Assembly: GCA_022827885.1 (NCBI GenBank)
Contig: JAJEIP010000110.1
Location: forward strand, 1-52,816
Direction of reading: 5' to 3'
Length of the DNA stretch: 52,816 bases
DNA from: Candidatus Poribacteria bacterium
GTDB taxonomy: Bacteria; Poribacteria; WGA-4E; WGA-3G
The notes under the pieces are model-generated. The model was not told the DNA's origin. It saw only the letters and a list, made by a program, of their open reading frames with translations, and did no database searches. Below are positions 8,337 to 38,032 of this stretch, in pieces. The number at the start of each line of letters is the position of its first letter. Position 1 is the first letter of the stretch. Both the position numbers and the translations under genes were made by a program.

Positions 8337-8951
8337 ATGTCATCAAATATCGCTAAATATCCTAAGGGAGATACCCACGCAAAAATGCCTCCCTTTACTC
8401 AGACAATCAAACTTTACGGCGATAGAACGGGGAGTAAGGGGACCTTTAGATTTGCCGGTCTCGCATGGATGCACGACACCAAAGTCATCCTTGTGCAAGG
8501 CGACGCACAAAGCCTGAGCAATGCTGCGGAGTGGCGGTGTTTTCTACGGCTTATAACATTGGCACATCGCCTCAAAAAGCCTATTGTTTTGTGGAATTTG
8601 CCCGTTGTTCATATCGCTACAGTCCAACGTCGGACCTCGTTAGATTGTGCACAGGCAATTCAGAACGCTGAATTGGAACTCCTAAAATTACCATACCCTA
8701 TCATCACAGTTTTCGACGAAGCTTATGACAGCACTTACGCCTATCCAGAACTTATATGGAACGACGGCATTGTACTCGTGACACCACCGGATGCACAATT
8801 TTCTGAACACGAAAAACTGAAGATCGTGCGATACCCAACGGACATTGAATCCGCAATTTTGGAACTCCTCTGTCAAGCGGCACCGATTCCTGCCTCGGAA
8901 TTAATCAAGAATCGGCAAGAATCCTTACGGTTTGCAGTTTGGAATGCGTAG
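8337..8951 (+). CDS. AccA-like crotonase-fold protein, probably catalytically altered
   Basis: A 204-residue protein resembling the carboxyltransferase alpha subunit of acetyl-CoA carboxylase. 'IKLYGDRTGSKGTFRFAGLA' lines up with the AccA 'LHGDR...IVGGLA' region, 'LAHRLKKPIVLWNLP' with the strand-helix before the active site, and 'AQAIQNAELELLKLPYPIIT' with AccA 'SEAIARNLREMSRLKVPVI'. The glycine-rich GEGGSGGA segment that forms the AccA oxyanion site is absent: the equivalent position reads 'VFDEAYDSTYAYPE'. It is also shorter than AccA (about 320 residues). This suggests a non-catalytic or repurposed relative. The Shine-Dalgarno is weak; start 8337 is the first ATG after the terminator, and a later start at the Met of 'AKMPPF' is possible. 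The family call is by motif only. Confidence 0.6.
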   Translation: MSSNIAKYPKGDTHAKMPPFTQTIKLYGDRTGSKGTFRFAGLAWMHDTKVILVQGDAQSLSNAAEWRCFLRLITLAHRLKKPIVLWNLPVVHIATVQRRTSLDCAQAIQNAELELLKLPYPIITVFDEAYDSTYAYPELIWNDGIVLVTPPDAQFSEHEKLKIVRYPTDIESAILELLCQAAPIPASELIKNRQESLRFAVWNA

Positions 8952-8952
8952 G

Positions 8953-8969
8953 GGTTGGGTCACCCAACC
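8953..8969. repeat. Intergenic palindrome
   Basis: ggttggg-tca-cccaacc: a perfect 7-bp stem with a 3-nt loop directly after the AccA-like gene stop. There is no T-run, so it is not a standard terminator. It belongs to the set of palindromes discussed in the findings. Confidence 0.7.
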
Positions 8970-8980
8970 TGTCCAGAAAA

Positions 8981-9146
8981 CGGCTCTACGGAGAAGTCCT
9001 TGGTTTTCGGGACTGACCTGACCGAACCGCAAGGTAAAATTACAAAATAAAGAGCGCGCAGCCTGCAACAACGGCGCAGGCGGTTCTACGGAGAGACACT
9101 TGATTTATCAAACTCGCCTAACCGAACCGCAAGGAATAATTAAAGA
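8981..9146 (+). repeat. Two diverged copies of the CGCAAGG leader repeat
   Basis: Bases 8981-9040 and 9081-9140 are related 60-base copies exactly 100 bases apart. Both begin CGG(C/T)TCTACGGAGA and end ACCGAACCGCAAGG plus an A/T-rich tail. Between them, 9061-9081 is a hairpin (gcctgc-aacaacggc-gcaggc). The second copy runs into the ATG of the following gene, its AAGGA lying 12 nt before the start. Related units sit before the genes at 25408 (minus), 33250, 38033 and 40519 (minus). Confidence 0.75.
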
Positions 9147-31005: not shown

Positions 31006-31029
31006 AGGCAAATAATGTTGCCCCAGGTC

Positions 31030-31145
31030 CGGTAGGTGCGGAATGTAATACATTGTCCCGAAAGTCCACACGCGACTCGCGCTATGGATTTCGTCTATTC
31101 CCAGACGAAATCCCGCAACCGCACCTGCCTTATCGCAAGGTATAA
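31030..31145 (+). repeat. Repeat block with 72-bp triple-hairpin element and CGCAAGG tail
   Basis: The core 31042-31113 is 68/72 identical to 33063-33134. It holds three inverted repeats: aatgta-a-tacatt, a central imperfect one around cgcgactcgcg, and ggatttcgtct-attccc-agacgaaatcc (perfect 11-bp stem). It is flanked by ggtaggtgcgg (31030-31040) and ccgcacctgcc, an inverted repeat with one mismatch. A cgcaaggtataattaaaa tail follows and abuts the stop codon of the convergent sulfatase. Confidence 0.8.
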
Positions 31146-32477: not shown

Positions 32478-32500
32478 GCAGTAACCCTTAATATAAAGTA

Positions 32501-32521
32501 GGCGCGCTTCGTAAGCGCGCC
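32501..32521. repeat. Intergenic palindrome
   Basis: ggcgcgctt-cgt-aagcgcgcc, perfect 9-bp stem and 3-nt loop between the sulfatase start and the small gene end. Confidence 0.7.
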
Positions 32522-32575
32522 AATTTTGAAAAAGACTTCTTTATTTACCGAGAACTCTTGTGCATAAGCCGGGAG

Positions 32576-32966: not shown

Positions 32967-33062
32967 GTCAGAAAATGCGTTTGGCGTATCTCTTGAAGGT
33001 TAGTATCAAAAACGTAGCACGCAACAATACGCAGAAATACCCCGCTGAATGCCACACGCGCA

Positions 33063-33134
33063 AATGTAATACATTGTCCCGCAAGTCCACACGCGACTTG
33101 CGCTACGGATTTCGTCTATTCCCAGACTAAATCC
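33063..33134 (+). repeat. Second copy of the 72-bp triple-hairpin repeat
   Basis: Matches 31042-31113 at 68 of 72 positions. In this copy the central stem is perfect (cgcaagtc-cacacgc-gacttgcg), while the last stem has one mismatch; in the other copy it is the reverse. It sits inside a larger repeat related to 37924-38032. Confidence 0.85.
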
Positions 33135-33249
33135 AGCGTTGATTCGCAAAAACACGCGGGTGGATACTCTGAAAAAACCGTTAAATCTCCAATCGCATCG
33201 TTCTTCCGCAAGGTCCAATTAAAAACTTCCAACACAAAGGGGAACACCA

Positions 33250-37853: not shown

Positions 37854-37923
37854 TCATATAAACTTTTTTCACTATCAGTGTTTTTTAAGTGTTCTGGACA
37901 TCCTTTTTAGAATCGGGTTGCAA

Positions 37924-38032
37924 GCCTGCAACAATACGCAGAAATACCCAAGCAAAAACACGCAGGCGACTCTGGAGAAGGATGTATCAAAGTTCTAACC
38001 TACGTCGTTCTCCCGCAAGGAAAAATTAAAAA
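37924..38032 (+). repeat. CGCAAGG leader repeat before the Gfo/Idh/MocA gene
   Basis: Arms gcctgc (37924-37929) and gcaggc (37962-37967) could pair around a 32-nt loop. A 46-nt spacer then leads to CGCAAGG (38014-38020) and an A-rich tail ending at the ATG. Its loop contains 'gcaacaatacgcagaaatacc' and 'gcaaaaacacgc', both also found at 33019-33160. Confidence 0.75.

Follow-up and report, generated by a model that had tools for sequence, protein, structure and literature searches.

The 72-bp repeat that occurs twice in the window, the 52,816-nt stretch of a Candidatus Poribacteria genome analysed here, is by all comparisons a nested composite and not a single element. Filled and empty sites show its component B in the position of a trinucleotide, usually TTN; the target is not duplicated and the net gain is 42 nt. 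We consider it probable (roughly 0.8) that B belongs, with the further elements C, D and F, to a set of non-autonomous miniature hairpin elements which replace a triplet (five nucleotides in the case of C), nest in one another and depend on an enzyme provided in trans.

Architecture of the two copies

The copies at 31042–31113 and 33063–33134 differ at 4 of 72 positions, in agreement with the 68 identities that a previous sequence-only reading had counted; the ungapped repeat between them measures 75 nt with 93% identity. A 28-nt hairpin matches the window twice as compared to no match in 100 shuffles. As that reading also held, neither copy is covered by any ORF of at least 80 aa in the ORF listing, and copy 1 is bounded by GGTAGGTGCGG (31031–31041) and CCGCACCTGCC (31119–31129). 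Side-by-side comparison of the copies resolves an outer palindrome, A, and the elements B and C. Copy 1 has the architecture A[B[C]], A being a GTAG-type REP, and copy 2 is a different GTAG-REP containing D[F[B[C]]] (Table 1).

The terminal inverted repeat previously ascribed to the 72-bp unit dissolves accordingly: the arms belong to the host REP, and the 72 bp are C inside B. One of the three inverted repeats proposed earlier, aatgta-a-tacatt, is merely the junction of two nested elements and not a unit. The description as MITE- or REP-like has to be divided as well. The term REP-like suits the arms that enclose copy 1 (GTAG followed by a palindrome, clustered around RAYT-type transposase genes), and the unit is indeed mobile and repetitive, but it is not a MITE with terminal inverted repeats. 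A single MITE with such ends and a target duplication was rejected, the ends of B (AATGTA.. and ..AAATCC) not being inverted repeats and 3 nt being lost; a search for target-site duplications found none, and a missing trinucleotide instead.

A BLAST search of the window's own genome (5.13 Mb, 148 contigs) with window positions 31010–31130 as query returned 45 matches at E≤1, which fall apart into modules. Eight of them span the 72-nt unit and lie on 7 contigs, so that the repeat is not just a pair of copies within one segmental duplication. An Rfam search of the whole window gave no match.

Table 1. Parts of the two nested repeats and two reference sites in the window.
Part	Position	Strand	Supporting observation
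REP A left arm (GGTAGGTGCGG)	31031..31041	+	empty ortholog GGTAGGTGCGG-TTT-TCCAACCGCGCC in G017 (L293)
REP A right arm	31114..31129	+	empty ortholog in G017
Element B 5' part (AATGTAATACA), copy 1	31042..31052	+	97 distinct insertions of B lacking C
Element C (32 nt) inside B, copy 1	31053..31084	+	C found on its own in repeat E
Element B hairpin part, copy 1	31085..31113	+	stem covariation
Base GTAG-REP left arm (GTAGCACGCAACAA), copy 2	33014..33027	+	empty in G017, G047, G040, G050
Base REP right arm, copy 2	33155..33163	+	sequence comparison
Element D first part	33028..33041	+	
Element D last part	33146..33154	+	
Element F first part, replacing CAA of D	33042..33062	+	
Element F last part	33135..33145	+	
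Element B 5' part, copy 2, replacing TTC of F	33063..33073	+	
Element C, copy 2	33074..33105	+	
Element B hairpin part, copy 2	33106..33134	+	
Base REP with D alone (CAA of D intact)	37923..37968	+	empty reference for F or B
Base REP without D (CGG intact)	9059..9084	+	empty reference for D

Element B and its distribution

Element B has the 45-nt consensus AATGTAATACAAGGAAYGGATTTnGTCTATTCCCAGACnAAATCC. Across 33 distinct oriented hairpins, 341 of the 363 pair cells of its stem are Watson-Crick, a number reached by none of 2000 shuffles (maximum 328; the shuffles ignore relatedness), and 4 of 11 pairs occur in more than one Watson-Crick type. Judged by this alignment the stem shows compensatory changes; a tnpB copy (L153) has matched double changes. 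The wobble pairs of the stem (3 G-T versus 6 A-C cells) revealed no RNA strand bias.

The 5' part of B is present in all 24 genomes of the window's genus, with 1–36 copies each, and in none of 16 genomes of other genera; the reversed pattern was absent from all 40. A scan of bacterial and archaeal genomes for the B hairpin yielded at least 106 stretches, every record listed being titled Poribacteria, and viral contigs contained none. B also occurs within B, three deep at L100 and likewise self-nested at L223 in the window's own genome. A long autonomous element bounded by the two halves of B was not found among the loci searched, which held only apparent remnants. Because each host class tends toward its own variant of B, independent insertions are far fewer than copies.

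Replacement of a trinucleotide

A strict search for empty sites, which permitted 0–9 nt at the position of B, found a match for 40 of 97 distinct B insertions (57 had none), and all 40 show exactly 3 nt. The triplet is TTT at 32 sites, TTC at 14, TTG at 3, TGG at 2 and TCT at 1, some sites having more than one; two of these kinds, TGG and TCT, are not TTN. In a looser search, 94 of 108 outer B insertions had some match, which included a 3-nt empty in 80 cases and none in 14. Filled minus empty amounts to 42 nt, or to 42 nt plus whole nested elements, across the tabulated hosts (Table 2), where the 2-nt gaps in REP A are due to its shorter-loop variant. GTAGGGG-type hosts, whose orientation is unsure because they are self-complementary, yielded no short empty with the patterns of the host table and 3-nt empties (TTA, TTC and others) in the looser search. 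The 3-nt rule covers unrelated hosts, namely tnpB, REPs, D, H, F, B itself and an AMP-binding ORF.

Table 2. Filled and empty sites of element B by host.
Host	Filled	Empty	Empty sequence
tnpB	12	17	TTC or TTT
A'	19	11	TTT
D	10	6	TTG, one TGG
H1	4	2	TTC
H2	4	5	TTC
F	3	1	TTC
B itself	4	41	TTT, TTC
A	10		6 TTT, 8 TT

Both window sites were also found without inserts in relatives, and one genome (G017) lacks the inserts at both, in flanks that are 92–95% identical. At the site of copy 1 it has the plain REP, GGTAGGTGCGG-TTT-TCCAACCGCGCC, with 95% identical flanks; G008 has the filled form and many other relatives have no REP. At the site of copy 2, G017, G047, G040 and G050 have the base REP free of all four inserts. 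Empty sites in most relatives and in outgroup tnpB genes, for example L148 from another family, show that B was evidently gained rather than lost.

Elements C, D and F

Element F measures 35 nt, C (TTGTCCCGCAAGTCCACACGCGACTTGCGCTA) 32 nt and D 26 nt, as compared to 45 nt for B. D replaces CGG of the base REP, of which all eight distinct empty versions have 3 nt, and F replaces CAA of D, which is TTG on the opposite strand. C replaces five nucleotides, TTCNT, in two hosts: TTCCT of B read backwards and TTCAT of repeat E. Inserts in the base REP have lengths of 26 nt for D, 68 nt for D[B] (+42), 110 nt for D[B[B]] (+42+42) and 127 nt for D[F[B[C]]], and the parts of copy 2 add up exactly (26+32+42+27 = 127 nt). 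A few other lengths, 36, 54, 67, 85 and 103 nt, were found once each. The block D[F[B[C]]] recurs in the window's own genome (C128), in G041 and in G047; hence the stack also travels as a block.

At position 5936 of L062, a different 54-nt hairpin replaces the triplet of the base REP, and further elements of this kind may therefore exist. Moreover, C, F and a third form (L091/L045) share the loop CACACGC on different stems (GCAAGTC-CACACGC-GACTTGC, GAATGC-CACACGC-GCATTC, GGATGC-CACACGC-GCATCC), stems seemingly having been exchanged around a fixed loop.

Element B inside protein-coding genes

Among the 106 B-hairpin matches listed, 16 loci carry B in frame in a tnpB gene, as identified by Pfam. 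There B replaces the Phe codon following the RuvC-I aspartate of TnpB (VGAD-F-GMKDA versus VGAD-NVIQGMDLVYSQTKS-GMKDA); one genome has tnpB both with and without B, at 91% identity (GCAGAC-[B]-GGTATG versus GCAGAC-TTC-GGTATG). This aspartate corresponds in alignment to the GxDxG motif of solved TnpB-type nucleases, and all 27 aligned copies have it whether or not they carry B. A tree of 42 TnpB proteins of at least 230 aa (exact duplicates excluded; 15 carry B) has 10 changes of the B label, and at least 8 of these changes are forced by well-supported branches. All 15 B copies are one variant or its decayed form, so that repeated insertion and spread by short conversion or transfer are equally likely. 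Models of TnpB with and without the B peptide, built from 27-row alignments, have low confidence around RuvC-I (mean pLDDT 61.4 and 64.7; pLDDT below 50 at 181–223 and 182–209, respectively). B as the end of a tnpB-bearing insertion sequence was rejected on comparison of the ends, which are unrelated: tnpB elements have the left tag TTATC and ends unlike B.

The cleanest case of B insertion is, in our reading of the alignments, the single-copy AMP-binding ORF. Among 30 aligned genomes (loci of 30 of 38 were taken in), 26 are empty, two hold B (G013 and the window's own genome) and two hold B in B (G046 and G010). The empty triplet is TTG in 18 of the 26 and not TTN in 7. The position of B is a linker, and the open frame of each of the four filled loci exceeds 1,100 codons.

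Outer REPs and Y1 transposase genes

REP A has the form GTAG-GTGCGGTT-TCT-AACCGCAC, that is, GTAG followed by a short palindrome, as in the REP/RAYT criteria given in the available text of PMC2817692 and PMC8266576, which also names cleavage at CT or CA. Copies of A or of A', a variant of it, lie at 12 of 24 Y1 transposase loci examined, mostly several per locus, and at L032 a PF01797 gene has A on the + strand upstream and two on the − strand downstream, the inverted flanking arrangement of RAYT genes. On these features A is a GTAG-type REP of RAYT transposases. Repeat H, another host of B, surrounds one RAYT-type gene, and a third REP family surrounds two. At L033 and L279, a second RAYT-type gene is encircled by a different repeat family, TTGTGGGAGGGCTTTGTAAGCCCGA.

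At the 24 Y1 loci B and C occur only inside A or H, which indicates that B is not itself the REP of a RAYT; it has no GTAG tag and does not flank a RAYT gene on its own. A Y1 hit was obtained in 37 of 40 genomes. B is present in G013, which has no Y1 hit, and one 89%-complete genome has 16 B and no Y1 hit. Copy number of B follows neither the number of Y1 genes nor that of tnpB genes (Spearman 0.12 and 0.09; n = 24).

Related repeats were also observed. The window contains a GTAG-tagged hairpin at 32498–32522 (GTAGGCGCGCTTCGTAAGCGCGCC) and, at 8948–8969, GTAG-GGGTTGGG-TCA-CCCAACC, the empty version of a host type that holds B elsewhere. In L031 (G000:C59, 501–1350), an IS200-type tnpA is flanked by long inverted ends (AACCAAGTCGCTACTT..AGGTAGCGACTTGG), and palindromes CACTCCGTAGGAGTG lie inside. 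At L044, L056, L098, L108, L124 and L128, A' with B is part of a longer repeat with ends like inverted TATAGTA..TACTATA, which was found again in isolate SB0670_bin_33 and resembles a MITE that carries the stack.

Proposed mechanism and alternatives

Precise replacement, nesting and joint movement of stacks with their hosts are evident from the site comparisons. They show B standing in for a trinucleotide, mostly TTN, D and F for three nucleotides and C for five (TTCNT), no target duplication being formed. An element can enter another element or, at its own TTT, a copy of itself, which lets a stack grow from inside; the stack then moves or is copied jointly with its outer host, be it a REP, D or a tnpB gene. 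We propose a mechanism in which a putative enzyme would move B in trans, acting on the folded single strand and exchanging it for the target triplet. Since the swap adds 42 nt (27 nt for C), the reading frame is kept, and insertions in genes would survive as peptide inserts.

Resident Y1 (HUH) transposases of the RAYT or IS200 type could in principle carry B, C, D and F as single-strand passengers, which we regard as rather improbable. Several features would suit this explanation: the hosts A, A' and H are REPs that gather around RAYT-type genes, both B and C are hairpins, the sequence of C with its flank is (R)TAG followed by a palindrome, and Y1 is widespread. It is at odds, however, with the lack of a GTAG tag on B and its confinement to A or H at the Y1 loci, with the presence of B in G013, with the uncorrelated gene counts, and with Y1 chemistry, which in the part of PMC8266576 available (a guide tetranucleotide, with cleavage at CT or CA) would not lead one to expect a loss of 3 nt. 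Movement via an RNA intermediate, with structured RNA being written into a nicked or single-stranded target, is unlikely too: compensated stems, very small size, self-nesting and replacement instead of duplication would fit it, whereas the wobble asymmetry toward one strand is absent.

More doubtful again is that B does not transpose at all and that a few ancient composites were spread by gene conversion over short tracts or by template switching. Such a process would account for the host-specific variants of B, for the single variant in tnpB despite its repeated changes of presence on the TnpB tree, and for the recurrence of D[F[B[C]]] as a block; yet the hosts have no junction homology while following the same 3-nt rule, and a single-copy gene acquired B and then B in B. 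Although most genomes are MAGs, assembly artefacts or chance palindromes have a negligible probability and are refuted by the same structures in the single-contig chromosomes G010/OX639992, G005 and G022, in the three-contig G018 and in intact ORFs.

It is tempting, if still tentative, to speculate about a separate class of mobile elements: hairpins of 26–45 nt that a predicted dedicated enzyme would swap for a TTN-type triplet, with a set length gain and stacks up to five deep, and that would tag catalytic motifs of other elements' nucleases. The insertion of B in RuvC-I of tnpB is a case of one parasite having invaded another at its catalytic motif. The way in which the smallest repeats of bacteria are mobilised is a long-standing question. 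Exact junctions, additive lengths and many matched empty sites, some of them in a single-copy gene or at orthologous positions of the window copies, mean that models based on a single-strand DNA transposase, an RNA copy or repair give distinct testable predictions.

Comparison with known systems

Literature searches on nested palindromic insertions in bacterial genomes produced no match, and among the matches listed for palindromic repeats in Poribacteria none concerned these elements by title or beginning of the abstract. The closest known kind appears to be the nested small dispersed repeats of Nostoc punctiforme (SDR1, SDR4 and others), together with REPs and Rickettsia palindromic elements. 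Elhai et al. 2008 reportedly described the Nostoc repeats as tiny (21–27 nt), mobile and nested, sharing a folded structure with compensatory changes, inserting into themselves and being confined to one lineage; an RNA intermediate has reportedly been suggested, and we know of no mobilising agent for them. Nested self-insertion (here L100 and L223) and a compensated stem (here with 4 of 11 pairs in alternative Watson-Crick types) would be common to both. By contrast, only D falls within the size range of the Nostoc repeats, B, F and C being longer, and the Poribacteria elements belong to another phylum, follow a triplet-replacement rule and insert in tnpB and other ORFs.

Insertion into a REP palindrome, as seen here, is also reported for IS1397-type insertion sequences. 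These are full insertion sequences with a transposase, whereas B codes for nothing. Miniature elements derived from IS200/IS605 insert 3' of a short tag with no target bases lost; B differs in losing a triplet.

GTAG-type REPs and REPINs with their RAYTs (Nunvar 2010; Bertels and Rainey 2011; Di Nocera 2013) resemble A of copy 1, A', H and REP68, all of them palindromes grouped in both orientations around RAYT-type genes; B and D, in contrast, have no GTAG tag and are not the flanking repeat of any RAYT at the 24 loci. Some REPs are inserted in other palindromes and in ORFs according to the accessible portion of PMC3733652, which does not mention triplet replacement for them. Rickettsia palindromic elements are described in excerpts of PMC3733652 and PMC10969869 as hairpin repeats kept in frame in protein genes, and palindromes in frame occur here in tnpB and the AMP-binding ORF. 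With about 150 bp (PMC10969869, in the excerpt) they are larger than the 45-nt B, which lies mostly outside genes, nests in itself and replaces triplets. We rate the Poribacteria elements as an extension of the very small nested mobile hairpins by a triplet-replacement rule.
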